Below are positions 12,002 through 36,257 of a stretch of DNA of 59,371 bases, piece by piece. A program made the translations under genes and the position numbers. This DNA comes from Butyrivibrio sp. GTDB taxonomy: Bacteria > Bacillota > Clostridia > Lachnospirales > Lachnospiraceae. The stretch spans positions 1-59,371 of the forward strand of contig JAFPVA010000116.1 in NCBI GenBank assembly GCA_017413105.1, written 5' to 3'. Positions within the stretch are counted from its first letter, which is position 1. Every line of letters begins with the position of its first letter. The notes beneath the pieces are model-generated. The model was not told where the DNA came from and ran no database searches. It saw only the letters and a list, made by a program, of their open reading frames with translations.

Positions 12002-12085
12002 TTTATTTATGGTGATGGGCCTGAGCTTGAAACAGAGCTATAACAGCATGGCCTATATATTTTTTGTGAAAAAGGAGTGAGAATC

Positions 12086-14197
12086 ATGACTTCAAAAAAG
12101 GGAAATCTTTCAATCAACAGTGAGAACATGTTTCCGATCATCAAGAAATGGCTGTACTCGGATCATGATATCTTTTACAGAGAAGTAGTTTCTAATGCAT
12201 GCGATGCAATTACCAAGATCCGCAAGATGGATATGATGGGAGAATATCAGCTTCCTGACGGATATAAGCCTCGCGTGGATATTATTCTTAATGATAAAGA
12301 CAAGACTATCAAGATCGTGGATAACGGTATTGGTATGACAGCTGAGGAGGTTGAGGAGTACATCAATCAGGTTGCTTTCTCAGGAGCTACAGATTTCCTC
12401 AACAAGTACAAGGACAAGGCAAACGCTGATCAGATCATTGGTCACTTTGGATTGGGATTTTATTCAACCTTCATGGTATCTGAGTATGTAGATATCGATA
12501 CACTTTCCTACAAGTCAGACGCAGCATCTGTACACTGGACCTGCGATGGCGGCTCAGATTTTGAGATGTCTGACGGAGATAAAAAGGAAGTTGGTACTAC
12601 AATTACACTTCATCTTTCAGAGGACTGCCTTGAGTTCTGCAATGAGTACAAGGCAAGAGAAGTTATCGAGAAGTACTGCTCCTTCATGCCTTATGAGATC
12701 TATCTCTCAAGGGAGAATGAAGAGGGAACAGAGACCATTAAGGAATCCGAGAAGCGCGATGATGATATCGTGATCGAAGTTATCGAGCCGGAGAAGAAGG
12801 CTGATGACAAGAAAGACGGCGAGGAGGCAAAAGAGGAAGAGAAGAAGCTCAAGATTAAGAGACGTCCACAGCTTCTTAACGACATTCATCCTCTTTGGGC
12901 TAAGACTCCTAAGGATTGCACAGATGAGGAGTACAAGGAGTTCTACAGAAAGGTATTCCGCGACTACAAGGAGCCACTTTTCTGGATTCACCTTAACATG
13001 GACTATCCTTTTAACTTAAAGGGTATTTTATACTTCCCTAAGATCAACATGGAGTTTGAATCCATCGAGGGAACAATCAAGCTTTACAACAACCAGGTAT
13101 TCATCGCTGATAACATCAAGGAGGTAATCCCTGAGTATCTGATGCTCCTTAAGGGCGTGATCGACTGTCCTGATCTTCCTCTTAACGTATCAAGATCAGC
13201 CCTTCAGAACGATGGCTTTGTAAAGAAGATTTCTGAGTACATCTCCAAGAAGGTTGCGGAGAAGCTTGCAGGTCTTTGCAAGACTGATAAAGAGAACTAT
13301 GATAAGTACTGGGATGACATCAGCCCATTCATCAAGTATGGTTGCCTTCGTGACGACAAGTTCTGCGAGAAGATGACAGACTACATCCTCTTCAAGAACC
13401 TGGATGGCAAGTATCTCACAACTCCTGAGGCACTTCAGATCAACAAGGAAGCTGAGGAAGAGGCTGCCAAGGAAGAGGCTACAGATGAGAACGGCAACAA
13501 GGTTGAGGCTGAGGTAGTAGATGCTGATGGAAATGCAGCTGATAGCAAGACTGATGACAAGAAGGAAGAAGAGGACAAGGAACCTCGCACCATCTACTAT
13601 GTTACAGACGAACAGCAGCAGAGTCAGTACATCAAGATGTTCAAGGCTCAGAAGATGGAAGCATTCATCATGAACCACAACATCGATGTACCTTTCATGC
13701 AGCAGCTTGAGTCCAAGAACGAGAACAAGATCCGCTTTGCAAGAATCGACGCTGATCTTACAGATACCTTCAAATCCAAGACTTCCAAGAAGGCAGCAGC
13801 TGAGCTTGAGGAAAAAGAGAAGGAAATATCCGAGAAGGTTAAGAAGGCTCTTAAGAACGACAAGCTCACTGTTAAGCTTGAGAAACTCAAGGACAAGAAG
13901 ATGTCTTCAATGCTCACTGTTTCTGAGGAATCAAGACGTATGGCTGAGATGATGAAGATGTATGCCATGAACGGCATGTCTATGGGCGATTTTGGAAACG
14001 AGGGTCAGACCCTTATCCTCAACGCAAATCATCCTCTTGTTGAGTACGTTATGGAGCATGAAGATGGCGAGAACACCAAGACTATCATCGAGCACCTTTA
14101 TGATCTTGCCCGCATCCAGAATGCACCTCTTGAAGGTGAGGCTATGAGCAAGTTCATAGCTCGTAGTAACGAGATCATGATGGTACTTGCTAAGTAA
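12086..14197 (+). CDS. htpG: molecular chaperone HtpG (Hsp90) with two acidic inserts
   Basis: A cytosolic ATP-dependent Hsp90 chaperone of 703 residues, longer than the roughly 620 usual for bacterial HtpG. The ATG at 12086 has AAAGGAG 8 bases upstream; a GTG at 12077 overlaps that site and is unlikely. The GHKL ATPase domain has VVSNACDAI near 35, DNGIGMT near 80, and GHFGLGFYSTFMV near 120. The middle domain starts near 260 (RPQLLNDIHPLWAK) and contains LPLNVSRSALQ. The extra length lies in a Lys/Glu-rich linker (about 209-260) between the N and middle domains and an acidic stretch (about 452-501). The C-terminal dimerisation region is complete. The CIRCE operator upstream predicts HrcA control. 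Confidence 0.97.
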   Translation: MTSKKGNLSINSENMFPIIKKWLYSDHDIFYREVVSNACDAITKIRKMDMMGEYQLPDGYKPRVDIILNDKDKTIKIVDNGIGMTAEEVEEYINQVAFSGATDFLNKYKDKANADQIIGHFGLGFYSTFMVSEYVDIDTLSYKSDAASVHWTCDGGSDFEMSDGDKKEVGTTITLHLSEDCLEFCNEYKAREVIEKYCSFMPYEIYLSRENEEGTETIKESEKRDDDIVIEVIEPEKKADDKKDGEEAKEEEKKLKIKRRPQLLNDIHPLWAKTPKDCTDEEYKEFYRKVFRDYKEPLFWIHLNMDYPFNLKGILYFPKINMEFESIEGTIKLYNNQVFIADNIKEVIPEYLMLLKGVIDCPDLPLNVSRSALQNDGFVKKISEYISKKVAEKLAGLCKTDKENYDKYWDDISPFIKYGCLRDDKFCEKMTDYILFKNLDGKYLTTPEALQINKEAEEEAAKEEATDENGNKVEAEVVDADGNAADSKTDDKKEEEDKEPRTIYYVTDEQQQSQYIKMFKAQKMEAFIMNHNIDVPFMQQLESKNENKIRFARIDADLTDTFKSKTSKKAAAELEEKEKEISEKVKKALKNDKLTVKLEKLKDKKMSSMLTVSEESRRMAEMMKMYAMNGMSMGDFGNEGQTLILNANHPLVEYVMEHEDGENTKTIIEHLYDLARIQNAPLEGEAMSKFIARSNEIMMVLAK

Positions 14198-19227: not shown

Positions 19228-20436
19228 ATGTATCTTGAGTATATAAAAAGCGCAATAGCAAGCATAAGAAGCAATAAGGGAAGGTCATTTCTCACCATGC
19301 TGGGTATCATTATTGGTATCGCAGCGGTTCTTATTGTGCTCGTTATTGGTGACGGTATGAAAGCGACCGTAAACAGTGAGATGGATGATCTGGGAGCAAC
19401 TACTGTTACAGTTTCGTTGGATAAGCTAAAGACAGAAAAAACCTTTACCAGAGAGCAGTTAAAGACCATAGAAAGTACATTGAAGGGAATTTACGGAGTT
19501 TCGCCTTCTCTTGATATTTGGGGCAATTTTGTCACAAGCAGAAGAACTTTTGACGCAAATGTAAGCGGCAGCGGAGCAGCGAAGGTCAACGCAGCCGGGA
19601 ACAAGATAATTCATGGTCGTTACTTTAGTGAAAACGACGTGGATGAGGGAAAAAAAGTAATTGTTATATCTCAAAGCACGGCAAATAAACTATTTGGTTA
19701 TGAAAAAGCTGTAGGCAATACTGTTCATCTGGATTTTTATGGTGATGAGGCTGATTTTACCGTAATCGGTGTCAGAGAAGACACTTCAATGGATAAGGCT
19801 TATGCAAGCTTTGGTGATGAGCCTACGCTTATGGGGGACATACCGTTTACTGCTGCAGCCGAAGTTTATAGCATAGATCCTGACAAGCAGTTTACAAGCT
19901 TTGCAATCTATATGGATAAAGAGAATAAGGATAAAGTCCTTTCTTCTGCCAGATCCATCGTGGAAAACGTTATGGGACTCAGGGGAGAAGGTGCAGTAAA
20001 AATCCAGTCATCTGCAGGTTTTGACCAGACTACCGACACCATTCTCAACATTATAACTGCCGTTGTTGCTATAATTGCAGCGATTTCTCTTTTGGTAGGT
20101 GGAATCGGAGTTATGAATATAATGACAGTTTCCGTGACAGAAAGAACAAGGGAAATTGGAATCCGCAAATCCCTGGGGGCAAGGACCGGCTCTATTTTGA
20201 CACAATTTTTGGCAGAGGCTGCGATCCTTACTTTTACCGGAGGAATAATCGGAATCATCACCGGACTCTCGATATCCTTTTTGATCTGCAAGGTTGTGGA
20301 CTTTACATTTACGGTCAATCCGATACTTGTTGTCGTTGTCGTATTGATCTCTACCAGTATCGGACTGTTTTTTGGAATCTACCCTGCCAAACGTGCTGCA
20401 AACCTTGATCCCATCGAGGCGCTTCGTATGGAATAA
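19228..20436 (+). CDS. MacB-like ABC transporter permease (second of two)
   Basis: A 402-residue paralogue of the permease just upstream with the same layout: first helix in MLGIIIGIAAVLIVLVIGDG, MacB core, then VGGIGVMNIMTVSV, RTREIGIRKSLGA, and FGIYPAKRAANLDPIEALR at the end. With only one ATPase gene in the operon, the two permeases probably form a heterodimer on an ATPase homodimer; alternatively each forms a homodimer with the shared ATPase. CTGGAG lies 7 bases before the ATG. It is the last gene of the export operon; no strong terminator is visible before the next operon 86 bases later. Confidence 0.92.
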   Translation: MYLEYIKSAIASIRSNKGRSFLTMLGIIIGIAAVLIVLVIGDGMKATVNSEMDDLGATTVTVSLDKLKTEKTFTREQLKTIESTLKGIYGVSPSLDIWGNFVTSRRTFDANVSGSGAAKVNAAGNKIIHGRYFSENDVDEGKKVIVISQSTANKLFGYEKAVGNTVHLDFYGDEADFTVIGVREDTSMDKAYASFGDEPTLMGDIPFTAAAEVYSIDPDKQFTSFAIYMDKENKDKVLSSARSIVENVMGLRGEGAVKIQSSAGFDQTTDTILNIITAVVAIIAAISLLVGGIGVMNIMTVSVTERTREIGIRKSLGARTGSILTQFLAEAAILTFTGGIIGIITGLSISFLICKVVDFTFTVNPILVVVVVLISTSIGLFFGIYPAKRAANLDPIEALRME

Positions 20437-20483
20437 AAAGGGTAGAAATCGAAGTTTCCTAATTCTCTATGTGACTTAATCTA

Positions 20484-20492
20484 TGATATACT
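20484..20492 (+). promoter_or_regulatory. possible extended -10 promoter of the 20523 operon
   Basis: TGATATACT is an extended -10 box (TG, one base, TATACT) 30 bases before the start codon. No good -35 box stands at the expected distance, which extended -10 promoters tolerate. Confidence 0.35.
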
Positions 20493-20522
20493 TACATATA
20501 TATGTGGTTTTTGGGGTGAGTT

Positions 20523-23500
20523 GTGAAAGAAATCGTAGAACAGTTACTTAAAGGTAAATATACTTATGCGGAGCGAAGTCTTGATTTTTCGACCCCGCGT
20601 GTTGAGTTATATCTTGGTGCAGGCACTATGGCAGAGGGTACCTTCACCATTTTTGGGCCTGAAGACAGGCTTCTTGTGGGCAAGATCAGCTCTACAGAAG
20701 TCAGGATGCAGGTCATAACCCAGGATTTTTCCGGTACCCCCTATGAGGCTTCTTACAGATTTGATGCCAGGGGCCTGTCAAAAGGGGATGTGATCCAGGG
20801 CGATTTCCGCATTATCTCCAATCAGGGAGAGTATTATCTCCCTTTTGTGGTCAACGTCAGGCTGGATCATATTGCTTCCAGTCTCGGAGACATCAAAAAT
20901 TTATTCCATTTTGCAAATCTAGCTAAAACTGATTGGAATGAGGCAGTAGACCTCTTTTATTCCGATGAGTTCATATCGATTTTTGAGGGCACCGAAGGCC
21001 AGTATGAGAGCCTTTACAGGGGCCTTTCTGCAGTTCCCGGCAATGAGCAGAACGTTGAGGAATTTCTTATTGCCATCAACAAGAAGCAGCCAATGAACTT
21101 CCTTGTGGATGAGAAAGAGATAAACGTAGATTATAACGGCACATCAAGGGATAACACAATAACCATAACAAGGAGTGGCTGGGGATATTCAGGTCTTTCT
21201 GTAAAGATAGACGGAGATTTCATTACGCTGGATAAGAGCAGCATCGGTGAGGATGATTTTACCGGAAGCAGCTGCCACCTAAAATACAGGATAAGGCAGG
21301 ATAAGCTCCACAGTGGCAATAACTTTGGTAAGATCACTTTTTCCAATGCTTTTACAAACATAGAATTACCGGTGGTGGTTTCTGCGGATGTTTCGGGAAT
21401 ACACCCTACAGTGGATTATCAGGAGAAAAAGAAACTGATAGTTCAGCTCATAAAGGTATATGAGAGTTTTAGCTGTAAAAAGATAACTTCAAGAGCCTGG
21501 CTTTCCGAGACCGGCAAAATAGTTGCCAAGATGAATGCTCTTGATGATAAGGACCTGGAATTCAGACTATATACAGCCCATTACTACATAACTGCCGGCA
21601 GGGTAAATGAGGGCAAGTGGATACTTGACCAGTGTGCAAAAGAGGTGGAGGAAGCCCCCGGGGATACTCTATACAGCTACTACCTGTATCTCTCAACACT
21701 TAGCACCCGTGAGGACAGCTATGTCAACGACATCTCTGAGAGACTTGAGGGGATTTTCAGGCGAAACCCTGACAACTGGCGTATTGCCTGGCTTCTTTTG
21801 TATATTTCAGAGGAGTTTTCCTCATCAAGCCCAAGGAAATGGATGACCCTTGAAAGTCAGTTTTCCTTTGGCTGCAGGAGCCCGATTGTTTATCTGGAAG
21901 CAGTGAATCTTTTGAATGACTCGCCATCAATGCTTACAAGCCTTGATGATTTCCAGCTCTATGTCCTTGAATATGGGGCAAAAAAGAATGTTATAAGTCT
22001 CAGCCTTATTGACCAGCTGGTATATCAGGCCGGCAGGGTAAGAAATTACAATGACAGGCTCTTCAGGGTACTTACAGCCTGCTACAAGATAAAAGAAAGC
22101 GACGATGTTCTGGAAGCTATTGTCTCCCTGCTTATCAAGGGCGGAAAGACTGACAGGGCTTCTTTCGAGTGGTATGAAAAGGGCGTAAGCAGGGAACTTA
22201 GGATCACAAGGCTCTATGAGTATTACATGATGTCCATCTATACAGATGAGAACGGACTTCTTCCCTGCGAGATAAACAGGATGGTCCTGATGTATTTTTC
22301 CTATCAGAGCGACCTTGAATACGACAAAAATGCAATCCTTTACAGATATGTCCATGAGCACAGAGAGGATTATCCCGAGCTTTACGAATCCTATGTGCCA
22401 CAGATTGAGAAGTATCTCATGGCGCAGCTCGATAAGGGCAGGATCAGCAGAGACCTGGCTTATCTGTACAAGAACATGCTTACAAGGCAGATGGTGGACG
22501 CCGCCAATGCATCGAAGGTTCTGGCGGTGCTTCATACCTCTGAGATAAGGACAACAGATAAAAGAGTATGCAGTGTAATTGTGGTCTACGATAAATGCGA
22601 GAGGGAAATGCGCTATCCTGTTGCGGACCAGAAGGCCTACGTGCCGTTATATGGCAGTGATTATGCAGTTCTTTTGGCTGACCATGAGGACAACAGGTTT
22701 GCTACGTCGATTCCCTACAGCAATGTGAAGATGATGCTTCCGGGCAAGCTCCTTTCCTATGCTTCGCCTTATATTCAGAAGGGAAAAGAGAATCTGGACC
22801 TGTTCCTTTCAGACCTTGGTAAAAATGCTTACACCATCACCATGGAGAATGTGGGAAGATACAGAGATCTGGCTTCTTCTGACCTGGTTCGCAAAAAATG
22901 CAGGGATGAGATCAGAAATAATCTTGTCAGATTCTATTATGACAATGATTTTACAAGGCAGTTGACGGAATATCTTATGGGAATAGACGCTGCGGACCTT
23001 ACCACAAAGGAAAGGAATGAGATCCTTGAGCTGATGGTCATGGGAGGTCTTTATGACAGAGCGCTCATGTGGCTTAAGGATTACGGGACCTATGGCGTTG
23101 ACCCAAAGACAGTTCTTCGTCTCTGTGGCAGGATGATAGACAGGGATCAGTATCCTGCATCCCAGCCTGAAATTGAGATAGCTTTTTATGCCTTTAGTAA
23201 CGGCAAATATGATGAGCAGCTTCTGACCTACCTTGTCAGATACTTTGAAGGTACCACGAAGGAAATGAGAAATGTGTGGAAGGCAGCCGAGTCCTTTGGA
23301 CTGGATACTTATTCTCTTTGCGAGAGGATACTTATCCAGATACTTTACACAGGTTCCTATATTGGTGAGAAAATCGCTATTTACAAGGAATATGTGCATA
23401 ACGGCCCCAATACTGATGTGGAGACAGCTTTCCTTACTCAGAATTCCTATGACAGCTTTGTTCATGGAAAAATAGCTGAGGGGTATATTTTTACCCGTAT

Positions 23501-24116
23501 CGAGAAGCTGGCGCTGGAAAACGTTCCGCTGCAGGATGTGTGCAAGCTTGCATATCTCAGGTATTATGCGACGGAAAAGAAGGCGGATGAAGCTGTAAGT
23601 GATGAAGTGGCAATCTTTTTCCTGAAGGACCTTATGAAGCAGGGAATATTCTTCCCATTCTTCAAAGAGTACGAGGATCTATTGCCTGATATGTATCAGT
23701 TCAGCGACAAGACAATGCTGGAGTACAGGACTGCTCCCGGCAGGCATTGCACTGTGCATTACAGACTGGACAGTGATTCCGACAATGATTATAAAAGCTT
23801 TGAAATGATGGAGATGTACGAGGGAATCTATGTATGCGGCTTTGTTCTTTTCTTTGGAGAGCAGCTGCAGTACTACATTACCGAAGAAGGCAAGGATAAT
23901 TCCGAGATTGCCACTGAGAGCGGAACCATCGCAAAGAGTGACATAGTTAAGGATTCCTCAGGCAGCAGATACAATCTGATCAATGACATTATGATCGGAG
24001 AGACTCTCCAGGATTACGAAACCGTAGACAAGCTCATGCAGGAGTATTATCAGAAGAAAAATGTCTGTGATATGCTCTTTAAGCCTATCATGGAAGAAAA
24101 GGATGATGAGTACTGA
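20523..24116 (+). CDS. giant protein of unknown function, Ig-like plus alpha-solenoid (possibly DUF5717)
   Basis: A 1197-residue cytoplasmic-looking protein with no signal peptide or membrane helix. Two beta-rich, Ig-like regions lie near residues 15-110 and 200-293; the second has alternating hydrophobic strands such as GKITFSNAFTNIELPVVVS. Residues 300-650 and 770-1050 are repetitive helices like TPR or other alpha-solenoid scaffolds, broken by a beta segment near 665-750. A last beta region (VHYRLDSDSDNDYKSFEMM) lies near 1085-1130. The start is GTG with GGGGTGAG upstream. Its stop overlaps the start of the Hsp70-like gene by one base, showing tight coupling. From memory it may match Pfam family DUF5717, which has no function. 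It probably scaffolds the ATPase encoded next. Confidence 0.75.
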   Translation: MKEIVEQLLKGKYTYAERSLDFSTPRVELYLGAGTMAEGTFTIFGPEDRLLVGKISSTEVRMQVITQDFSGTPYEASYRFDARGLSKGDVIQGDFRIISNQGEYYLPFVVNVRLDHIASSLGDIKNLFHFANLAKTDWNEAVDLFYSDEFISIFEGTEGQYESLYRGLSAVPGNEQNVEEFLIAINKKQPMNFLVDEKEINVDYNGTSRDNTITITRSGWGYSGLSVKIDGDFITLDKSSIGEDDFTGSSCHLKYRIRQDKLHSGNNFGKITFSNAFTNIELPVVVSADVSGIHPTVDYQEKKKLIVQLIKVYESFSCKKITSRAWLSETGKIVAKMNALDDKDLEFRLYTAHYYITAGRVNEGKWILDQCAKEVEEAPGDTLYSYYLYLSTLSTREDSYVNDISERLEGIFRRNPDNWRIAWLLLYISEEFSSSSPRKWMTLESQFSFGCRSPIVYLEAVNLLNDSPSMLTSLDDFQLYVLEYGAKKNVISLSLIDQLVYQAGRVRNYNDRLFRVLTACYKIKESDDVLEAIVSLLIKGGKTDRASFEWYEKGVSRELRITRLYEYYMMSIYTDENGLLPCEINRMVLMYFSYQSDLEYDKNAILYRYVHEHREDYPELYESYVPQIEKYLMAQLDKGRISRDLAYLYKNMLTRQMVDAANASKVLAVLHTSEIRTTDKRVCSVIVVYDKCEREMRYPVADQKAYVPLYGSDYAVLLADHEDNRFATSIPYSNVKMMLPGKLLSYASPYIQKGKENLDLFLSDLGKNAYTITMENVGRYRDLASSDLVRKKCRDEIRNNLVRFYYDNDFTRQLTEYLMGIDAADLTTKERNEILELMVMGGLYDRALMWLKDYGTYGVDPKTVLRLCGRMIDRDQYPASQPEIEIAFYAFSNGKYDEQLLTYLVRYFEGTTKEMRNVWKAAESFGLDTYSLCERILIQILYTGSYIGEKIAIYKEYVHNGPNTDVETAFLTQNSYDSFVHGKIAEGYIFTRIEKLALENVPLQDVCKLAYLRYYATEKKADEAVSDEVAIFFLKDLMKQGIFFPFFKEYEDLLPDMYQFSDKTMLEYRTAPGRHCTVHYRLDSDSDNDYKSFEMMEMYEGIYVCGFVLFFGEQLQYYITEEGKDNSEIATESGTIAKSDIVKDSSGSRYNLINDIMIGETLQDYETVDKLMQEYYQKKNVCDMLFKPIMEEKDDEY

Positions 24117-25417
24117 TGCTTTTTTCAAACTCAGATGAAAAGCGCTTTGTGCTGGGATATGATCTGGGGGACAAGGTTTCCCAGATAAGCTATCTTGCCT
24201 CCGACGCGGATATGCCGGAGACTCTTTCAGTGCTTGCAGGTGCAGAACTATATAATATTCCTACCGTCCTTTGTAAAAGAAAGAATGTAAACCAGTGGTA
24301 TTTTGGTAAGGAAGCGGTAAGGCATATTGAAGACGGGGATGCTACGCCTGTCTATGATCTTCTTTTGGCAGCAAGGGAAGGAAAGCCTGTAAAGGTTCTG
24401 GATGCAGAGTATGACCCGATAGCTCTTTTGACCCTTTTTATAAAAAGAAGCTTATCGCTCCAGTCTATGGAACTATCTCTGGACAGGGTTGAGGCAATCA
24501 TGTTCACTACCAAATCCCTGGATCATCGCATGGTTCAGGTTTTAAATGCTGTGACTTCAGCTCTTGAATTAAAGACCCAGAGCATCTTTTACCAGAGCCA
24601 TGAGGAGAGCTTTTATAACTATATGCTCTATCAGCCGGATGAGCTCATGCATCACTGCGTGATAGCCTGCGACTATGATCTGGATACACTTGGTGTATAT
24701 CAGATGAGCCTCAATCACAATACTACTCCTGTTGTTGCAACGATAGATGTCAGTATTTTTAACGAACTTAAGCTGGGGCCGGAGGGCTTTCCTAAGGATG
24801 CAGCTCTTTTCCACAGGACCAGTGAGAGACTTGATGATGAGTTCCTCAATATCATGCAGAAGGTCTGCGGAGAGAGGATTGTATCGACTATTTTCCTTTT
24901 GGGAGACGGCTTTAAGGAAAAATGGACCAAGAGATCCTTGGAGTTTTTATGCAGGACAAGAAGAGTTTTCCAGGGGAATAACCTCTTTAGTAAGGGTGCT
25001 ACCATTGCTGCAAGGGAGAGGCTTCGCCCCAGTGAGAATTCTTCGAGATTTGTTTTCCTTGGTGAGGACAAGCTTAAATCAAACATTGGAATGAACGTAT
25101 TAAAGTGCGGGACTGAGTGCTACCATGCTCTTTTGGATGCAGGAGTTAACTGGTATGAGGCTTCATCGCAGACGGATATCATAATCGACCAGCACGGGGT
25201 ACTGGATATTCAGATCACACCTCTTACAGGAAAGAGCCCCAAGATCGTACAGCTGTTTCTTGACGGGCTGGAAAAGAGACCTAAAGGGACCACCAGACTT
25301 CGTCTTTCCCTGACTATGGCCTCCGTTAATGAAGTCGATATAAAGGTTCAGGACCTGGGCTTTGGAGAGCTGTTCCCCTCCTCAGGTAAAGTGTGGGAGC
25401 AGACGGTAGAGCTTTAG
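24116..25417 (+). CDS. actin/Hsp70-fold ATPase-like protein of unknown function (possibly DUF5716)
   Basis: A 433-residue protein whose layout recalls the actin/Hsp70 superfamily. A phosphate-1-like start LGYDLGDKVSQISY (residues 13-26) corresponds to GIDLGTTNS of DnaK. A second strand-turn, VIACDYDLDTLGVYQ (about 182-196), fits phosphate-2, and FLLGDG (near 262) followed by FSKGATIAARE (near 300) fits the adenosine loop and closing helix. The C-terminal 110 residues are beta-rich (LDIQITPLTG, TTRLRLSLTMA), perhaps replacing a substrate-binding domain. Motifs are degenerate, so catalysis is unproven. It overlaps the giant gene by one base (ATGA). I recall DUF5716 for such proteins but could not check this. 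Confidence 0.7.
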   Translation: MLFSNSDEKRFVLGYDLGDKVSQISYLASDADMPETLSVLAGAELYNIPTVLCKRKNVNQWYFGKEAVRHIEDGDATPVYDLLLAAREGKPVKVLDAEYDPIALLTLFIKRSLSLQSMELSLDRVEAIMFTTKSLDHRMVQVLNAVTSALELKTQSIFYQSHEESFYNYMLYQPDELMHHCVIACDYDLDTLGVYQMSLNHNTTPVVATIDVSIFNELKLGPEGFPKDAALFHRTSERLDDEFLNIMQKVCGERIVSTIFLLGDGFKEKWTKRSLEFLCRTRRVFQGNNLFSKGATIAARERLRPSENSSRFVFLGEDKLKSNIGMNVLKCGTECYHALLDAGVNWYEASSQTDIIIDQHGVLDIQITPLTGKSPKIVQLFLDGLEKRPKGTTRLRLSLTMASVNEVDIKVQDLGFGELFPSSGKVWEQTVEL

Positions 25418-25438
25418 TAACAGATTTTAGGAGTTTAT

Positions 25439-26287
25439 ATGGGACGACCGATACTTTGTATAGGTACATACGCGGAGAATCCGTATCATATAGATAAAAT
25501 AGGCAAGAACGTGTACTGCATTGAAGAACTGTGCTATTGCATAGTGCAGAATGCGTTTCTTCTTGATGAGGACAGCTTCGATAAGGAGCTGTTTGACTGG
25601 ATTGCCAGGGAATGCTCACTGGACAGACTTGCGGATGAGCTTAGGAGCATGCATGCAAAGAAGTGCTCAATTGCTTCAATGGCTGGAATCATCCTGGATT
25701 ACGTGGGCTACAACACCAAGAAAGAGGTGGATAAGACCGAGGAAATCCTTAGGGAAAATGCCGGAATGGACATCTATCAGAAGAGATTGTCCAGAGCGGA
25801 TTTCCTTATGACAAACGGTCGTTACAGCATGGCTTTTAAGGAGTATGAGTTTATTCTTGCCAATACTCCTGACATGAACCGGAAACTTCGGGCAAGGATT
25901 GAGCACAATGAGGGAGTCATGTACGCAAGACTCTTTTTGTTTGACAGGGCGGAAAAGATGTTTTTGAAGGCCTTCGAAGATGGGAAAAATCCCGAATCCT
26001 ATATCCAGTATCTTTCAGCTGTCAGGATGAAACTCAGCCCTAAGGAATATGTGGGCTTTGTGGCAGATAATGAGGAGGTCTACGAGGCGTCTTTGGAACT
26101 TGAAAAGCGCATGAATGAAGCGCTGGAAATCTATGATGGAAGTGATGATAAGCACAGCCTTGGCACTATTTCTGTGATAAAGGCTGAGGGCAAGATGCAT
26201 GAGTACTATACCGAGATTGGGGAAAAGACAAGAAGTATCAAGGAAGAGTACAGAAATCTTGTGAAGGAAAAGGTTGGGAGCAAATAA
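25439..26287 (+). CDS. TPR-like helical protein, third gene of the unknown operon
   Basis: A 282-residue soluble protein of unknown function. The first 60 residues begin MGRPILCIGTYAENPY and contain a Cys-rich stretch (VYCIEELCYCIVQ). Residues 115-215 form helix pairs with TPR-like spacing (RADFLMTNGRYSMAFKEYE, HNEGVMYARLFLFDRAEKMF, KAFEDGKNPESYIQYL), so a protein-protein adaptor role is likely. The C-terminus is a charged helix. TTAGGAG lies 5 bases before the ATG, and only 21 bases separate it from the ATPase gene. The stop codon directly abuts the next start, so the operon is tightly packed. Confidence 0.75.
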   Translation: MGRPILCIGTYAENPYHIDKIGKNVYCIEELCYCIVQNAFLLDEDSFDKELFDWIARECSLDRLADELRSMHAKKCSIASMAGIILDYVGYNTKKEVDKTEEILRENAGMDIYQKRLSRADFLMTNGRYSMAFKEYEFILANTPDMNRKLRARIEHNEGVMYARLFLFDRAEKMFLKAFEDGKNPESYIQYLSAVRMKLSPKEYVGFVADNEEVYEASLELEKRMNEALEIYDGSDDKHSLGTISVIKAEGKMHEYYTEIGEKTRSIKEEYRNLVKEKVGSK

Positions 26288-27481
26288 ATGGGATTTTTAG
26301 AAAATATTTTTGGAAAATCTCGTCCAGCAGAGGCTGCCGGAAAGGCAGAGTATGAGAACTGGAATGATATTGTCTACACCAGAAAAGATCTGGATATTGA
26401 CGATCCGGTTCAGAGAAGGGAGTATATCGGAAGCTGCCTTCAGCAGATGGAAGAGGCTGCCAGGGAACTGGATGGCCTTGAAATGGAATACTATGACGTT
26501 ACAAGTCATTTAAGGGACATGGAGGAGATTGATGCCCTCCCTGAGCCCCAGAGACAGGAGATAAATGAGTGCGCCCAGAAGATAATCGATTCTGAGCAAA
26601 AGCGCGAAAAATTCAGTAAGCGCAAGAGCAAGATGACCGAAGATGAGTATGAGCGCATGGAGAGACTTCAGTCAGAGGCCAAGAAGGGGATAAAAAAGCT
26701 GGCTGAGGCAGAGGATTATCAGAAGAAGATAAAGAACGATCTAAAACGCCTTGACGGAGAGCATCAGGCTTATATCTTCCGGGAGGAAGAGCTTTTAAAT
26801 TCCATGGATAACTGCAGGAAGCTTATAATAGTGGTTGCAATTACGCTGGCCCTTGTTTTTGGTCTTCTCATTGTTCTCCATAATGTCCTGAAGCTGAATG
26901 TTGCCTATGGATATATGATATCTGTCCTGATGGCAGCTATTGCGCTGACATATCTTTTTATCCGTAACTCAAATGCACAGATTGAACTAAAAGGCGTGAC
27001 CAAGTCAATCTCAAGGCTCATAATGCTTCAGAACCAGGTCAAGATAAGATATGTCAACAACACCAATCTTATCGACTACCTGTGCCTTAAGTTCAGGGTA
27101 AATAATGCCAGAGAATTAAAGGCTCTTTACGAAAAGTACCTTCAGGAGGTAAAAGAGAGAGAGGCCTACGAGGATGCCCAGAAGAACCTGGATGTAAATC
27201 AGAAGGACCTTATATATATGCTTAAGCGCCTTCGCATCAAGGATCCCGAGATATGGGTTCATCAGGTGGAAGCTCTTTTATCCCACAATGAAGAAGTTGA
27301 GATAAGACACAGCCTGAATGTTCAGAGACAGTCCCTTCGCCGCCGCATGGAATACAACAGAGATGTGGTTGCAGGAAATGCCAAAAGGGAGATCGAAGAC
27401 ATGGCTCAGCAGTATCCGGAATATACCCAGGAGATTCTGGATATGGTTTCCAGATATGAAGAAAAATACCCTTCTTTTTAG
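26288..27481 (+). CDS. membrane-anchored coiled-coil protein, fourth gene of the unknown operon
   Basis: A 397-residue protein with two charged coiled-coil regions (about 55-175 and 235-390) on either side of two close transmembrane helices (near residues 180-198, IIVVAITLALVFGLLIVLH, and 204-224, AYGYMISVLMAAIALTYLF). Both coiled coils would then face the cytoplasm. This is the only membrane protein of the operon and could dock the giant scaffold and the ATPase-like protein at the membrane. It starts on the base after the stop of the preceding gene. I recognise no enzymatic motif. It ends with a TAG stop. Confidence 0.75.
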   Translation: MGFLENIFGKSRPAEAAGKAEYENWNDIVYTRKDLDIDDPVQRREYIGSCLQQMEEAARELDGLEMEYYDVTSHLRDMEEIDALPEPQRQEINECAQKIIDSEQKREKFSKRKSKMTEDEYERMERLQSEAKKGIKKLAEAEDYQKKIKNDLKRLDGEHQAYIFREEELLNSMDNCRKLIIVVAITLALVFGLLIVLHNVLKLNVAYGYMISVLMAAIALTYLFIRNSNAQIELKGVTKSISRLIMLQNQVKIRYVNNTNLIDYLCLKFRVNNARELKALYEKYLQEVKEREAYEDAQKNLDVNQKDLIYMLKRLRIKDPEIWVHQVEALLSHNEEVEIRHSLNVQRQSLRRRMEYNRDVVAGNAKREIEDMAQQYPEYTQEILDMVSRYEEKYPSF

Positions 27482-27518
27482 TTGTTGACGGGTAGAAACA
27501 CAATGCGCTCACTCTTGC

Positions 27519-27560
27519 ATCAAGTTCTCACGAAATGCGCAGCTTAGTTCGCATTTCTGT
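27519..27560 (-). repeat. structured intergenic repeat, copy in reverse orientation
   Basis: Read on the minus strand, ACAGAAATGCG, a short loop and CTGCGCATTTCGTGAGAAC match the first-hairpin region of the repeats at 30610 and 55254. The stem AAATGCG/CGCATTT differs from AAATCCG/CGGATTT of the other copies by a compensating base-pair change. The second hairpin is not clearly present. Confidence 0.7.
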
Positions 27561-27609
27561 TTGAACAGTAACTATTCATTCATCGCATTAATATGACAAA
27601 AATTGGTGA

Positions 27610-27638
27610 TTGTCACAAGGCAGGGATGATGATATTAT
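27610..27638 (+). promoter_or_regulatory. probable sigma-A promoter of purF
   Basis: TTGTCA (27610-27615), 17 bases, TATTAT (27633-27638), leaving a leader of about 40 bases before the purF start. No riboswitch or PurR box is evident. Confidence 0.65.
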
Positions 27639-27683
27639 GGTCGTGTTCGTGAAAGATTTTTCCTGTAGCGATGAGGAGATTTT

Positions 27684-29129
27684 ATGGAAAATACATGTAG
27701 GACCGAAAGTTACAAGCACTTGGGGGAAGAGTGCGGCGTTTTTGGAATATATGATTTCGACGGAGGGGATGTGGCAGAGTCAATCTACTATGGTCTTGTG
27801 TCACTCCAGCACAGGGGACAGGAGAGCTGCGGTATTGCTGTCAGCAAGACGGATGGCCCCAAAGGTAAGGTTGTAAGCTACAAAGACATGGGCCTTGTTA
27901 ATGAGGCTTTCACGCCTGAAACCCTGGACACACTAAAGGGCGATATAGGTGTTGGTCACGTGCGCTATTCTACAGCCGGCAGCAGCACCAGAGAAAATGC
28001 TCAGCCACTTGTTCTAAACTATGTAAAGGGTACCTTGGGACTTGCCCATAACGGTAACCTGGTCAATGCACCACAGCTTCGTCATGAGCTGGCTTATACC
28101 GGTGCAATCTTCCAGACAACAATTGATTCAGAGGTAATTGCATATTTGATCGCCAGGGAGAGACTGGTTACAGGTTCTGTCGAAGAGGCAGTCGGTAAGG
28201 CTATGCAGAGGATAAAGGGTGCTTATAGCCTTGTTATCATGTCGCCACGAAAGCTTATCGGAGCAAGGGATCCTTACGGATTTAAACCGCTTGTAATAGG
28301 CAGAAGAGAGAACTGTTATATTCTGGCGTCTGAGACCTGTGCCTTAGATACCATCGGAGCTACTTTTATCAGGGATGTGGAACCTGGAGAGATAGTTACT
28401 ATTTCACCTGAATATGGCATCAGATCAGATAAATCCATGTGCCTTCCAAAGGATAAGCACGCAAGATGTATTTTTGAGTATATATATTTTTCAAGACCGG
28501 ATTCCCATATAGACGGTATCAGTGTATATGATGCCAGAATAGCAGCCGGAAGATTCCTTGCAATGGATTCTCCTGTGGATGCAGATATGGTTGTGGGAGT
28601 TCCTGAGTCAGGAAACGTTGCGGCTCTTGGTTATGCCCTGGAGTCCGGGATTCCTTATGGACAGGCCTTTGTAAAGAACTCCTATATAGGCAGGACCTTT
28701 ATTAAACCAAAGCAAAAGAACCGCGAATCCAGCGTTCAGGTGAAGCTTAATGCTTTAAAGAGCGCAGTTTCCGGTAAACGTATTATAATGATAGATGATT
28801 CCATTGTCCGTGGAACCACTTCAGATAGAATTGTCCGTATGCTGCGGGATGCAGGGGCAAAAGAGGTTCATATGAGGGTAAGTTCACCGCCGTTCTTATG
28901 GCCCTGCTACTTTGGAACCGATGTTCCCGCAAGGGATCAGCTCATTGCCTACAACAGAAATGTGGATGATATCTGCAAGATCATAGGTGCGGATTCCCTG
29001 GCTTATCTTGGGATAGAACGCCTTGAAGAAATGGTAGGCGGAAATCTTGGAATCTGTAAAGGATGCTTTACGGGGAATTACCCTGTAGATCCACCAAAAG
29101 AAGACATCCGTGGAGAATTCGAGAGGTAA
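27684..29129 (+). CDS. purF: amidophosphoribosyltransferase
   Basis: A 481-residue enzyme that makes phosphoribosylamine from PRPP and glutamine, the first committed step of purine synthesis. A 16-residue propeptide (ending GEE) precedes the catalytic nucleophile Cys17 in CGVFGIYDF, as in the Bacillus-type enzyme. The Ntn glutaminase domain includes [14 protein letters not shown] and GHVRYSTAG. The C-terminal PRTase domain has the PRPP loop [14 protein letters not shown] near 370. Four cysteines ([16 protein letters not shown]) toward the C-terminus resemble the iron-sulfur ligands of clostridial PurF. GAGGAG lies 5 bases before the ATG. purB follows 28 bases later. Confidence 0.97.
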
Positions 29130-31658: not shown

Positions 31659-31797
31659 TGGAACGAGGGGAGTTTTTTGGTGGAACGAGGGGACGGTTCT
31701 TTCGTTCCACATTAAGTGGAACGTCAAGAACCGTCCCCTCGTTCCATATTTCGGTAGGGAGACTAAGTGGAACGGAAGAACCGTCCCCTCGTTCCAC
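31659..31797. repeat. REP-like cluster: three full copies and one partial copy
   Basis: Full units GTGGAACG-15 nt-CGTTCCAC occur at 31680-31710 (GAGGGGACGGTTCTT sense), 31716-31746 and 31767-31797 (both AAGAACCGTCCCCTC sense). A partial unit GGAACGAGGGGAGTT starts at 31660. The first two full copies face each other and can fold into one long hairpin of about 30 bp, like a bacterial interspersed mosaic element. It fills the gap between metF and the moxR-like gene. No transposase gene is nearby. Confidence 0.9.
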
Positions 31798-31829
31798 CCT
31801 CATTCCACAAAATACTAAGGAGCAGCGAT

Positions 31830-32831
31830 ATGGATTCCAAGGAGAAAATCCAGATTTCAGAGAGTGAATTTAATTACGCCCAGGACGTCATCAAGAGGCT
31901 TTCAGACTACTATGACGCCAAGGTGGTTGGTCAGCAGCAGCTTAAGTTTTCACTTATAGGTGCTATCATTGCTGACGGACACATTCTTATAGAGTCTGTG
32001 CCGGGACTTGCCAAGACTACAGCAGCCAAGGCTATTTCAGATGCCGTGGACGGCAAGTTCATGCGTATTCAGTGTACACCGGATCTTTTACCGGGAGATA
32101 TCATCGGTACACAGATATTTAACCAGGCAAATGGTAAGTTTGAGACAATCCTTGGCCCTGTTTTCGCAAACTTTGTTCTTCTTGATGAAGTAAACCGTTC
32201 AAGTGCCAAGACACAGTCAGCCATGCTTGAAGCCATGCAGGAGAAGCAGGTTACAATTGGCGGAACAGCTTACCATATGCCGGAGGATATCTTTATAGTT
32301 ATTGCAACCCAGAACCCGATAGAGCAGGAGGGAACCTATCCTCTTTCAGAGGCTCAGACTGACAGGTTCCTGATAAAAGAGGTTATTACTTATCCTCTGG
32401 CTTCTTAGGAAGTTGAGATCTTAAACAGAATTGAGACAGGAGTAATCTCCAAGGCAACACCGCCTGTTCTTTCGATAAAAGATGTGGATAAGGTTCAAGA
32501 TATCTGTGAAAAGGTATACGTTGATGATGCCATCAAGTGGTATATCTCAAGTATAGTTGTGGCTTCCAGAAGAGCTAATCAGATTCAGGGACTGGATGTT
32601 GGCAAATATGTCAGAATTGGATGCAGCCCAAGAGCTTCAATCGCATTTTTGAAAATGGCAAAGGCTTCTGCGCTCATGCAAGGAAGGACTTATGTTGTGC
32701 CTGAGGATGTGAAGGCAGTAAGACACCAGGTATTGAGGCACAGGATTGGTCTTAACTATGCAGCAGTAGCGGATAATATTTCTGTTGAGCAGGTTATCGA
32801 TGGAATTGTGAACTCTGTGAAGACACCTTGA
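31830..32831 (+). pseudogene. MoxR-family AAA+ ATPase interrupted by an in-frame TAG
   Basis: The reading frame runs 334 codons but codon 193 (32406-32408) is TAG. Before it stand Walker A SVPGLAKTTAAKA near 55, Walker B VLLDEVNRSSAKTQ near 115 and sensor 1 IATQNPIEQEG near 160. After it, in the same frame, the lid domain continues (EVEILNRIETGVISK) and ends with IDGIVNSVKTP at 32831. Family members read YPxxxEEExEIL here, so TAG most likely replaces GAG, CAG or AAG by one change. AAGGAG lies 7 bases before the ATG. The DUF58 and vWA genes downstream are intact. It may be a true nonsense mutation, a strain variant or a sequencing error; two separate half-proteins are less likely, as no ribosome site precedes the second half. 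Confidence 0.85.
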
Positions 32832-32841
32832 GGAGACAACT

Positions 32842-33741
32842 TTGCAGCTGGACTACGATTATTTATCAAGAATAAGACGAGCAGTGGCTCTTTATACAAA
32901 CAGGAAGACCTCCAATATTCTTGATGGAGATTTTCATTCGATACACCGCGGGCGCAGTATGGAGTTTGACGACCTTAAGCTCTATACCTTTGGCGATGAT
33001 GTTCACGATATAGATTGGAAATCCTCTTCCAGAATGGGAGATATTCTTGTAAGGCGCTATATGACAGACAGGCGCCACAATGTAATGTTTGTCTGCGACT
33101 GTGGTCAGAAGATGACCGGAGATACCATGGCGGGGAGGCCCAAAAGTGAGCTTTCCCTTATGACTTTTGGTACCATTGCTTATATTGCAGGCAGAAATGG
33201 GGCAGACTATGCTCTGGGATACCCAAGAGAAAAACGGGCAATGATGAGTCTTTTCAGGTCCGGACCGGAGCATATGGAAAAACTTCTGTATGAATACGGG
33301 AAATGTATCGACACCGACCAGGGCCTTACTGCTCTTGATGTGCTTAGAGAAGTGGCCTATTCAATAAATAAGAAGATGATAATCTTTCTAGTGACTGACA
33401 TTGATGGTCTGGATAAACTTGACGAGAACCTCCTTCGGATTGTCACAAAGGACAATGACCTTCTGGTTATCGGTCTGGAGGATGCCATGCTCACAGGAGG
33501 AAATTCCTATGACAACGATATCAGTCTTTACGAGAAGCACTTTTTTACAGGGAATAAAAAGCTCCGCAAGGAGGAGCAGAGAATCCGAAGAGAAATAGTG
33601 GAGAGGGCATCCCTTATCTGCAAGCAGAACAAAGCGGGTCTCACCATAATAGATTCTGAGGATAAGATCATAGATGCCACCATAGATCTTTTAGAAAGGT
33701 ACAGACATGGTTACTACGGTTACGTTACAGCCACCCTTTGA
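32842..33741 (+). CDS. DUF58 domain protein of the MoxR/vWA operon
   Basis: A 299-residue cytoplasmic protein with the DUF58 signature FGDDVHDIDWKSSSRMGDILVRRY near residues 50-75 (the D-DIDW core), which is followed by a vWA-like fold (VMFVCDCG near 90). DUF58 proteins occur with MoxR ATPases in Bat-type and methanol-dehydrogenase maturation operons and act with the membrane vWA proteins. The start is TTG at 32842, chosen because GAGGAGA ends 6 bases upstream, overlapping the stop of the moxR frame, and no ATG is available before the conserved region. It overlaps the next gene by 35 bases. Confidence 0.88.
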   Translation: MQLDYDYLSRIRRAVALYTNRKTSNILDGDFHSIHRGRSMEFDDLKLYTFGDDVHDIDWKSSSRMGDILVRRYMTDRRHNVMFVCDCGQKMTGDTMAGRPKSELSLMTFGTIAYIAGRNGADYALGYPREKRAMMSLFRSGPEHMEKLLYEYGKCIDTDQGLTALDVLREVAYSINKKMIIFLVTDIDGLDKLDENLLRIVTKDNDLLVIGLEDAMLTGGNSYDNDISLYEKHFFTGNKKLRKEEQRIRREIVERASLICKQNKAGLTIIDSEDKIIDATIDLLERYRHGYYGYVTATL

Positions 33742-34201
33742 GTATTACTGGTGGCTTATTCTTATTGGGGTGATATTTCTTTTGGGGGCTGGGGCCTTAT
33801 TATTTCTTGCCTTTAGAAAGCTCTTTTTGCAAAAGCCAAGGAAGGCGGGAAAAGAAAAGCCGGTTATGATTAAGCCTACACCCCAGAGCCTTGCTGTCAT
33901 AAAGCAGAAGTATACTGAGCAGCTTAGGGCTCTTATGGATTCCTATGCCAAAAAGACTGTTTCAAAAAGAGATGGATATCAGAGGCTGAGTCTTCTTATA
34001 AGGGGCTTTGTCACTGATGCCACCGGAATCAATGTGGAAATCTACACTAAGACTGAGATTCAGGACTTTGGTATAAAGAGCCTGGATAATCTTATGAATG
34101 AGTATTACATCCCTGAGTTTGGAGAGGCTGAAAGAGCTAAGACCAGGGATTTTACAGCATCCTGTAACAAAACGCTTAAGGTGATACAGTCATGGAAATG
34201 A
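33707..34201 (+). CDS. small single-TM protein of the vWA operon (DUF4381-like position)
   Basis: A 164-residue protein with one membrane helix (about residues 15-37, WWLILIGVIFLLGAGALLF), a basic stretch, and a helical cytoplasmic domain of about 115 residues (YQRLSLLIRGFVTDATGINVEIYTKTEIQDF). In related operons this slot between DUF58 and the first vWA gene is held by DUF4381-type proteins; this one has similar size and layout but I cannot confirm the family. It overlaps DUF58 by 35 bases and the next gene by 10, so translation is coupled. Confidence 0.75.
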   Translation: MVTTVTLQPPFEYYWWLILIGVIFLLGAGALLFLAFRKLFLQKPRKAGKEKPVMIKPTPQSLAVIKQKYTEQLRALMDSYAKKTVSKRDGYQRLSLLIRGFVTDATGINVEIYTKTEIQDFGIKSLDNLMNEYYIPEFGEAERAKTRDFTASCNKTLKVIQSWK

Positions 34202-35301
34202 TGCATAAATGGGTGGTCTATTTAGGAATCTTTGCGATCATTCTTGTGCTTTCTTTTGCATTCCTGTTTAGAAGAAAGCACAGAGATATGTTCGCTAAAG
34301 GCGTTAAGGTTTCAGGCACCCAAAAGATCAAGTCAACCGAAGTTTATAATAATCTGAAGCTGCAGTACAGATTTTTGTCGGCGCTGATGGTTGCAGCCCT
34401 GGTGGGGTGTGCGGTATCGGCTTTCTTTCTTGTGGCAAGACCCTACAAAAATCAGGATGTTTACACCGGGATAAAGAAAAGAGATATCATCATCTGTATG
34501 GATGTCTCCTATTCGCTCTACGACCTTAATTCGGAGCTTACAGAGTATTTAAAGGGCGTCGTAAGGGGACTTGCAGGAGACAGGATAGGAATAAGCATCT
34601 TTAACACCTCGTCTGTTACTTATGTGCCTCTTACGGATGATTATGACTATGTGGCTGCAAAGCTTGATGAGCTGGACAAATACTTTAAGCTGCAAAAAGA
34701 GCTGTATGAAGAGATCTATGATCACTATAACTATACCTACGAGATGCCTGACAATGTAGAAGCCAGATATTATCAGCTAATGGATGAACTGGCCTATTAC
34801 GATGCAGGAACTTTGTACAACAATACTATCAGAGGTTCTTCCCTTATCGGCGAAGGACTTGGCACAGCACTTTACTCTTTTCCCTATCTTGGGGATTCGG
34901 AGCGCACCAGAGTTATCATAATGAGCACCGACAATCAGCTCAATGCCCATGACAGGCAGGTTATGGACCTAAATGAGGCAGCAGGTTATTGCAAGAAGAA
35001 TAAGGTTACGGTATTTGGAATTTTCCCTTCTGAGGAGAACTTCTATCAGCCGGAGAATTTCAGCTATGATGTCTGCAAAAAAGAGTACAAGTCAGCAGTT
35101 GAAAAAACAGGTGGACTTTTATATGTAAGGACCCCGGACCTTCCTGTTTCTGCCATTGTTCAGAATATTCAGAAGCAGGATGTAATGACAGTAAACATGA
35201 TAGTGTCAAGGGAGACAACCGATCTTCCGAGAACACCTTTCATCTTTCTTTTGCTTTTCCTCGGGATAGTTTGTGCTATGGGAGTGGTACTTCAAAAATG
35301 A
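34192..35301 (+). CDS. vWA-domain membrane protein (BatA-like)
   Basis: A 369-residue protein with a membrane helix at residues 7-25, a second at about 65-85, a von Willebrand A domain (about 95-315) and a C-terminal helix (PFIFLLLFLGIVCAMGVVL). The metal-binding MIDAS motif DVSYS is present in IIICMDVSYSLYD near residue 104. A long insert rich in Tyr and acidic residues (about 165-215, with YEEIYDHYNYTYE) is not typical of BatA. Such proteins work with MoxR ATPases, which remodel the complex at the membrane. The ATG at 34192 is followed by other in-frame ATGs at 34198 and 34201; the start choice is uncertain by three residues. Confidence 0.87.
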   Translation: MEMMHKWVVYLGIFAIILVLSFAFLFRRKHRDMFAKGVKVSGTQKIKSTEVYNNLKLQYRFLSALMVAALVGCAVSAFFLVARPYKNQDVYTGIKKRDIIICMDVSYSLYDLNSELTEYLKGVVRGLAGDRIGISIFNTSSVTYVPLTDDYDYVAAKLDELDKYFKLQKELYEEIYDHYNYTYEMPDNVEARYYQLMDELAYYDAGTLYNNTIRGSSLIGEGLGTALYSFPYLGDSERTRVIIMSTDNQLNAHDRQVMDLNEAAGYCKKNKVTVFGIFPSEENFYQPENFSYDVCKKEYKSAVEKTGGLLYVRTPDLPVSAIVQNIQKQDVMTVNMIVSRETTDLPRTPFIFLLLFLGIVCAMGVVLQK

Positions 35302-36257
35302 CGATACAACCTATTTTTCCTATTGGAATCCTGCTCCTTGGCTTTGTGGGAGCTATAGGCATATCCGCTTATTGTATATTTAAGGGTGGACATGCTTTAT
35401 CAGAAAAAATATTTACGCTGGCAAGGCTTTTTGTAATCTATCTGCTGGTGCTTATCATAGGCCTCAGGCCAGTATCCGTTGCTACAGATTATGAGTTTTC
35501 TACCAAAAATCTGGATGTTTTATTTGTGGTGGATACCACTATCAGCATGTGGGCACAGGATTATAATGGCAATAGGCCAAGGATGGACGGGGTAAAGAAT
35601 GATATTAGCTATATTCTCGGAGAACTTGCAGGGTCAAACTTTGGCCTTGTAACCTTTGATGATACCGCTCACGTCCTTTCACCCTTTACTCAGGACCTTA
35701 AGTATATTGAGGATACGGTGGACATTCTTACAATGCCGGATATTGAGTATGCCATGGGCAGTAATCTGTCAGTTCCTTTTTCCGATGTAAAGGCTCTTTT
35801 GGAGTCTTCCAGCAAAAAAGAAAACAGGAAGACAATTGTCTTTTATATCAGTGATGGTGAAAAGACCAACGAGAATGAGGAGGTATCCTTTGAGTCCCTT
35901 GCTGACTATATAGATGCCGGCGCAGTTCTTGGCTACGGCTCTGCAGCAGGCGGCAAGATGAAAAACGGATACACCTATCTCTATGACTATGACGGCCATG
36001 GTGAAGCTATCTCAAAAATTGATGAGGAGAACCTTGAAAGAGTGGCGACAGAGCTGGACCTTCAGTATCTGAACTTAAATGGCGGAAATACTGCTTTATC
36101 CGGTCTTATAGAGATGATAAAGCAGGAAAGTACCACCATTGTTGAAAAAGGTTTTGGCGCAGAAAGATATATTGATACATATTATTACTTTGCATTGGCT
36201 CTGGCTGTAATGCTGATGATAGAGGCGGCATTGTTTATGGGAAGGGGGAGACTATGA
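35298..36257 (+). CDS. vWA-domain membrane protein (BatB-like)
   Basis: A 319-residue partner of the preceding protein: membrane helices near residues 5-25 and 38-55, a vWA domain with MIDAS-type motif DTTIS in VLFVVDTTISMW near 80, and a C-terminal helix (YYFALALAVMLMIEAALF). ATG 35298 overlaps the upstream stop in an ATGA; a TTG at 35271 would add nine residues and is less likely. GGAG lies 13 bases upstream, so initiation probably relies on coupling. BatA/BatB pairs in anaerobes have been linked to stress or oxygen tolerance, but the molecular role is unknown. Confidence 0.87.
   Translation: MTIQPIFPIGILLLGFVGAIGISAYCIFKGGHALSEKIFTLARLFVIYLLVLIIGLRPVSVATDYEFSTKNLDVLFVVDTTISMWAQDYNGNRPRMDGVKNDISYILGELAGSNFGLVTFDDTAHVLSPFTQDLKYIEDTVDILTMPDIEYAMGSNLSVPFSDVKALLESSSKKENRKTIVFYISDGEKTNENEEVSFESLADYIDAGAVLGYGSAAGGKMKNGYTYLYDYDGHGEAISKIDEENLERVATELDLQYLNLNGGNTALSGLIEMIKQESTTIVEKGFGAERYIDTYYYFALALAVMLMIEAALFMGRGRL

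Follow-up and report, generated by a model that had tools for sequence, protein, structure and literature searches.

We analysed a 59,371-nucleotide stretch of Butyrivibrio sp. (Lachnospiraceae; assembly GCA_017413105.1, contig JAFPVA010000116.1, positions 1 to 59,371, forward strand), called the window below; its family (f1) is called the window family. The window contains four genes, A to D (Table 1), which an initial annotation, made by a model from the sequence alone, had described as a tightly coupled operon built around an Hsp70/actin-like ATPase. The coupling was as described: A and B overlap by 1 base, the B/C gap is 21 bases and the C/D gap is 0 bases. In Pfam searches, A was a full-length member of DUF5717_N and DUF5717 (PF18984, PF18983; 1111.5 and 338 bits) and B a full-length member of DUF5716_C (PF18980; 357.4 bits), all above the cut-offs. 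C gave TPR and RPN7 matches and D stray matches only, all below the cut-offs, and an NCBIfam search of the four proteins gave nothing above cut-off. Promoter-like sites across 20300–27800 were at chance level (11 against 12.9 expected). Over the same interval 13 terminator-like hairpins were counted, against 5.7 in shuffled sequences, and several lay within operon genes.

Table 1. Genes of the window operon (A to D) and of the longer operon of sister families (AN to C); L numbers denote loci.
Gene	Coordinates	Strand	Length (aa)	Description
A	20523–24116	+	1197	GTG start; DUF5717 protein
B	24116–25417	+	433	DUF5716; lidless Hsp70 (nucleotide-binding domain plus SBD-beta) that lacks the catalytic residues; H2 orthologue
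C	25439–26287	+	282	TPR-like, conserved N-terminal region; shortened relative of the ~390-aa long-operon TPR protein
D	26288–27481	+	397	Membrane hairpin (~residues 175–230, from the alignment), flanked on each side by a long charged stretch resembling a coiled coil (judged by eye)
AN			~390	Start of DUF5717_N
AC			~900	Rest of DUF5717_N and DUF5717
H1				HSP70
GE			~560–645 in most loci, 279 in L048	C-terminal GrpE domain (PF01025, E = 1.4e-14 and 5.4e-12 in two operons)
H2				DUF5716, also HSP70 in L050; B orthologue
H3				HSP70
H4V				HSP70, then VWA
C (long operon)			~390	TPR

To place B, a profile of B and its orthologue H2 was compared with PDB sequences. It matched DnaK (2v7y) over profile positions 21–500 (E = 2e-22), covering the nucleotide-binding domain and SBD-beta, and by homology over these two domains B is assigned to the Hsp70 superfamily, confirming the earlier call of an actin/Hsp70-fold protein. 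Six positions which we take to be catalytic (T11, K70, D194, G196, T199 and D201, E. coli DnaK numbering) were then scored in 47 of 69 H1, 66 of 86 H2, 47 of 69 H3, 36 of 59 H4V and all 55 B rows, leaving out duplicates, fragments under the length limits and rows with stops. All six residues were intact in every H1 (47/47), H3 (47/47) and H4V (36/36), i.e. 130/130 together, and in DnaK (4/4); the full set was present in 0/66 H2 and 0/55 window-family B. At single positions, K70 and D201 were kept in none of the 55 B and T199 in four. This loss argues against hydrolysis by B, and the window operon probably encodes no active ATPase complex, so the ATPase core and the motor proposed initially were not borne out.

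H2 had its own conserved residues at the catalytic sites (e.g. arginine in 95% at the D201 column), and a C-terminal motif of the type D-x-G-[FL]-G occurred in 57/66 H2, 47/55 B and 5/47 H3, and in no H1, H4V or DnaK. This distinct pattern argues that H2 is not merely decayed and that the dead Hsp70 is under selection for another job. The helical lid of DnaK was absent from H1, H2, H3, H4V and B: the median tail after SBD-beta was 150 amino acids (aa) in DnaK, 13–24 in H1, H2, H3 and B (16 in B) and 216 in H4V, where it includes the VWA domain, which occupies the lid position. At the DILLLDV-type linker, the columns compared in B and in the long-operon Hsp70s differed from those of DnaK.

DUF5716_C was found in 145 of 150 sampled genera of the window family, or 122 of 125 when only high-quality genomes are counted; 14 control genomes gave no match. 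All but two of the 145 positive genomes had a single match. Among the five negative genera, DUF5717 was found in three (genomes G158, G188 and G206) and not in two (G089 and G151). A sample of 295 genomes across the order gave DUF5716 matches in 142, of which 134 were over the cut-off. A profile of AN recovered 5 of 398 genomes in a phylum-wide draw, all of the window family, and DUF5717_N recovered 11 of 291 in a class-wide draw, ten of the window family and one (G576) with a weak match at a locus (L078) holding no operon member; both draws sampled the order's other families thinly, and the order sample covers these.

Across 58 window-family loci, profiles labelled A in all 58, B in 55, C in 50 and D in 33. 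No B label was assigned in L046, L097 and L116. Two of them, L046 (G015) and L116 (G212), do carry a B match, masked in the gene calls by an antisense open reading frame (ORF), and L097 is a B–C fusion labelled C; the eight loci without a C label comprised seven B–C fusions and L046, whose B match sits in a 724-aa open frame. As the missing labels were traced to fusions or masked ORFs, A-B-C is the constant unit and D an optional member. The supposition of a unit kept across the family held for A, B and C, and for D in 33 loci only. The four-gene set is no chance run of ORFs, and it is a core trait of the window family, as the initial annotation had supposed for Lachnospiraceae; the genes stayed neighbours in the survey, and they did not turn out to belong each to a well-described unrelated pathway.

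The absence of mobile-element marks, also proposed earlier, was upheld, since searches of viral contigs turned up no relative and those of plasmids no match. Four unannotated “Bacteriophage sp.” records matched A. The one examined, MT835486.1 (L175), holds A-B-C-D followed by two ORFs resembling valS genes beside other family operons, and upstream an ORF resembling one in L101, which we took for RarA. With such flanks the record looks like a window-family chromosome, and a phage or mobile-element origin was rejected.

In sister families of the order, reached through weak matches, the same genes lay inside an eight- or nine-gene operon. Pfam searches of two such operons gave the order AN-AC-H1-GE-H2-H3-H4V-C-D, with D only in some, and A was represented by two genes (AN and AC) in most long operons seen. 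D homologues ended the long operons L048, L119, L120 and L061. A scan of named genomes with a GE profile yielded 56 loci, including the isolate Defluviitalea phaphyphila Alg1 and metagenome-assembled genomes labelled Candidatus Epulonipiscium, Defluviitaleaceae and others. The members (two to nine per locus) were on the same strand, in the same order and unbroken in 56/56 loci; AC through C was complete in 21, the remainder being cut by contig ends or having fewer members. All seven long-operon-type genomes checked had the extra Hsp70s and a second GrpE match beside H2 (six contiguous, G040 split). In G040 (L055), GE and H2 were adjacent, and matches to three other operon-type Hsp70s lay on two other contigs.

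To orient these operons, a DnaK-rooted tree was made by a quick method from a 62-row subset of Hsp70s, with values of the Shimodaira–Hasegawa-like approximate likelihood ratio test only and with fused B rows trimmed to their first 450 residues. Window-family B formed one clade (99), with L048 (98) and then L061 (96), both long operons, as its sisters, and H2, B and H3 made up a single group (100). Of the 24 H2 rows in the tree, all but the one from L058 came from loci in which GE or further members of the long operon were also present. Since B is nested among long-operon H2, the window operon arose by loss of the active Hsp70s and GrpE. On this tree, a parent operon of eight to nine genes, encoding three catalytically intact, lidless Hsp70-type proteins, a GrpE-domain protein, a dead Hsp70, solenoid and TPR proteins and, in some genomes, a membrane protein, was reduced in the window family to the dead Hsp70 (B) and its non-ATPase partners A, C and often D. 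The initial annotation had overlooked this reduction, while its conserved unit, Hsp70 homology and partner proteins stand.

No second GrpE was found in ten B-bearing window-family genomes searched: nine had one, and the tenth, G000, had none found. The DnaK match of G000 covers only its end (C240:59337–59816), which we read, with the empty GrpE search, as an assembly gap. Hsp70 searches covered a sample of the window family, namely 13 genomes with or without B plus three (G158 in both). Four genomes (G008, G025, G209 and G128) carried a further Hsp70 scoring best with the DnaK profile (264–378 bits). Relocation of the active Hsp70s within the window-family genomes sampled was rejected, because these extra proteins scored far below true H1, H3 and H4V on those profiles. 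A genome of another family, G051, had AN-AC-H2 only; its matches elsewhere were to DnaK or were short and MreB-like, with none to a further Hsp70 of the operon type. Because its H2 branched with L166 (99), apart from window-family B, G051 represents a separate reduction to A and the dead Hsp70. Two independent losses are thus seen in these data, one in the window family and one in G051.

B and C formed a single ORF in eight of 57 treed loci. On a FastTree phylogeny of A (57 of 58 rows, one A row shorter than 800 aa being dropped, with some long branches meeting), B–C fusion required four changes, all forced by starred branches. L046, which lies outside the A tree, is probably also a fusion, judging from its 724-aa frame. 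Such recurrent fusion is indirect but good evidence that B and C touch.

On balance we favour, by a modest degree, the reading that the window complex is an ATP-independent A-B-C scaffold or peptide clamp, tethered to the membrane by D where D is present, and not a motor, since only the dead Hsp70 and scaffold-like proteins were kept. In the parent machine, the GrpE-like protein would serve the active Hsp70s as exchange factor during their cycle, and A, C and the dead Hsp70 would form a scaffold for them. In the window family, B would bind A and C through its Hsp70 body in an ATP-independent complex and may hold peptide through its SBD-beta-like domain; D, where present, would anchor this complex at the membrane on its cytoplasmic side. 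The whole would then be a static scaffold or a clamp, working like atypical Hsp70s such as Ssz1. A wider account is more tentative, and we give it slightly less than an even chance: one order evolved a machine in which four Hsp70-type proteins, all lidless, three of them live and the fourth dead, worked on solenoid scaffolds together with a dedicated GrpE-like exchange factor. At least two lineages would then have separately dropped every ATPase, the dead Hsp70 and its scaffold staying on as a complex that uses no ATP and has a structural or clamping role, and this complex became core in nearly all genera of one large family.

Several observations weigh against the scaffold or clamp and its derivation. 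D was not found by profile in 25 of the 58 window-family loci, so membrane tethering cannot be general. The phosphate-2 aspartate was retained in 35/55 B, and the loss of motif residues, while it speaks against hydrolysis, may leave ATP binding possible. The Hsp70 tree has several long branches, L061 included. The neighbouring genes (purF, purB, valS, folC and an aminotransferase gene) gave no functional clue.

Pfam attaches no function to DUF5717 or DUF5716, and its one-line descriptions hold neither the Hsp70 nature of DUF5716, nor the long operon, nor the reduction. In the portions of the open-licence literature available, no description of DUF5717 was found, and DUF5716 appeared only in work on another subject; for Hsp70 together with VWA or von Willebrand factor and GrpE, nothing relevant was found in that literature beyond Kaur et al. 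2020 (PMC7159879). A testable hypothesis is now attached to two Pfam families that had lacked any characterisation and occur almost throughout one bacterial family. The two kinds of operon also form a natural series: at one end several Hsp70s share an operon with an exchange factor of their own, and at the other stands a remnant that runs without ATP. This series would allow study of the role of a dead Hsp70 that has lost its live partners. The parent-operon Hsp70s, lidless, with no J-protein adjoining and one of them with VWA, depart from the usual Hsp70 design. Like DnaK-DnaJ-GrpE, the long operon pairs Hsp70s of intact ATPase motifs with a predicted GrpE domain; unlike it, the long operon lacks the lid, a DnaK-type linker in the columns compared and any J-domain protein (none in the operon in nine genomes searched, where all J-domain matches lay outside it). 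From the window operon both GrpE and any active Hsp70 are missing.

Alternatively, B may regulate the canonical DnaK as an atypical Hsp70 of the Hsp110 or Ssz1 type, with A and C as adaptors. TPR proteins commonly partner Hsp70 or Hsp90; Ssz1 is not known to turn over ATP, and Hsp110 likewise counts among the atypical or inactive Hsp70s. Among the further PDB matches of the B/H2 profile were Sse1 (1e-13) and Ssz1 (4e-13), although ordinary DnaK entries scored higher. In the window, htpG (Hsp90) lies at 12077–14197, upstream of the operon on the same strand; of 141 genomes having both genes, 12 carry htpG on the strand of B and 5.6–15.9 kb upstream of it, a count that was read by eye and is a minimum because of the many fragmented assemblies. 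In L044, L102 and L111 htpG comes immediately before A. This linkage may hint at chaperone work, though shared ancestry is possible. Against a DnaK regulator, dnaK was not seen within window-family loci and htpG was absent from the long-operon loci examined (at most ~22 kb). DnaK is also unlikely to have been the original partner, since a GrpE-domain protein and intact Hsp70s are encoded within the long operon itself. We regard this alternative as unlikely, though not far-fetched. As in the Ssz1 type, the Hsp70 body of B may serve as a partner subunit, to which the B–C fusions point indirectly, and not as a canonical chaperone; unlike Ssz1, B is bacterial, its gene keeps a fixed place in an operon beside those for solenoid and TPR proteins, it has no J-protein partner, and a ribosome link is not indicated. 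Ssz1 itself, of the ribosome-associated complex, is called an atypical Hsp70 in PMC8476630.

A biological-conflict (immunity) system, later domesticated, was also considered. Kaur et al. 2020 describe neighbourhoods of the GTPase-centred GAP1-N2 class with HSP70, GrpE, a second HSP70 without the peptide-binding domain, and FNIII fused to TPR or DnaJ; the long operon brings comparable components together, namely HSP70, GrpE, another HSP70-like protein and TPR proteins with a putative beta domain. Of the long-operon proteins compared with PADLOC, H4V of L121 matched the model PDC-M61B over its Hsp70 part (E = 2e-07) and GE weakly matched ZorA3 (0.0014). However, GAP1-N2 was found in 0/10 genomes (the control, Corynebacterium glutamicum, was positive), Pfam scans of two long operons revealed no GTPase member, and near-universal presence in the window family, with a single match in nearly all genomes, is unlike sporadic defence systems. 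Identity with a defence system was rejected, as the four window proteins had no PADLOC match at E 0.01. An origin in conflict is, in our judgement, quite improbable.

A third alternative, in which B functions as an ATPase of the actin/Hsp70 type and the operon encodes a membrane motor or chaperone that is active, could draw on the Hsp70 homology of B and on the first phosphate-loop aspartate, retained in 87% of the 55 B; against the losses at K70, T199 and D201, and with the long-operon orthologues already lacking the full set, we hold it very improbable. Least credible is an ancestral four-gene operon later expanded to nine genes: DUF5716 is far commoner in the window family than in the whole order sample, but B falls inside an H2 group drawn almost wholly from long-operon loci, and H1, H3 and H4V retain all catalytic residues.

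The N-terminal part of A (~residues 1–300) looked beta-rich and was followed by a long alpha-solenoid with TPR/PPR matches, as annotated initially. A beta-sandwich search of the N-terminus gave one match at E 0.37, and Cep192_D6 was best at E 0.1 in 2 of 25 members, none of these being significant; an Ig-like beta N-terminus is plausible. The alignment of A used (A6) has no separate AN rows, and mixed AN and AC alignments were mis-registered and were discarded. The TPR-type matches of C agreed with the proposed TPR-like adaptor. For D, proposed as a two-helix membrane protein, a hydrophobic scan supported a membrane segment, seen as one merged stretch (175–208) in the window; in homologues it was either a pair of stretches or a single long one.

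Fourteen long-operon loci (including L139:1779–2948, L128:2874–4163 and L160:1446–2783) had, ahead of AN and in the same orientation, a gene (M) for a membrane coiled-coil protein; the distance to AN was mostly no more than 50 bases. The M protein had no clear Pfam family. Its identification as MotA/ZorA was rejected, the matches being confined to the coiled-coil part, and M and D were rejected as one family (hhalign probability 0.6%); such operons thus carry two apparently unrelated membrane proteins at opposite ends. Additional ORFs of roughly 100–420 aa lay between operon genes in L062, L063, L064, L129, L142, L150 and L161. In L048:5316–7360 (G039), the Hsp70-VWA gene was in two ORFs (198 and 494 aa), by assembly error or decay.

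In the comparison of loci, neighbouring genes were named by eye and not by family search. The ABC-transporter permease genes that lie upstream of the operon in the window recurred in 12/58 window-family loci; purB was nearby in 30/58 and purF in 21/58. A divergent aminotransferase-like gene was beside the operon in 26 of 89 loci (18/58 window-family, 8/31 other) and valS in 19 of 89 (16 window-family, 3 other). These neighbours, shared by short and long operons, support one inherited locus. Downstream in the window, at 31767–37018, lay genes for a MoxR-type AAA protein, a DUF58 protein, two VWA-type proteins (one match below cut-off) and a TPR protein; the MoxR-type gene was split (31767–32408 and 32484–32831) and corresponded to a single 331-aa ORF in L031 and L033.

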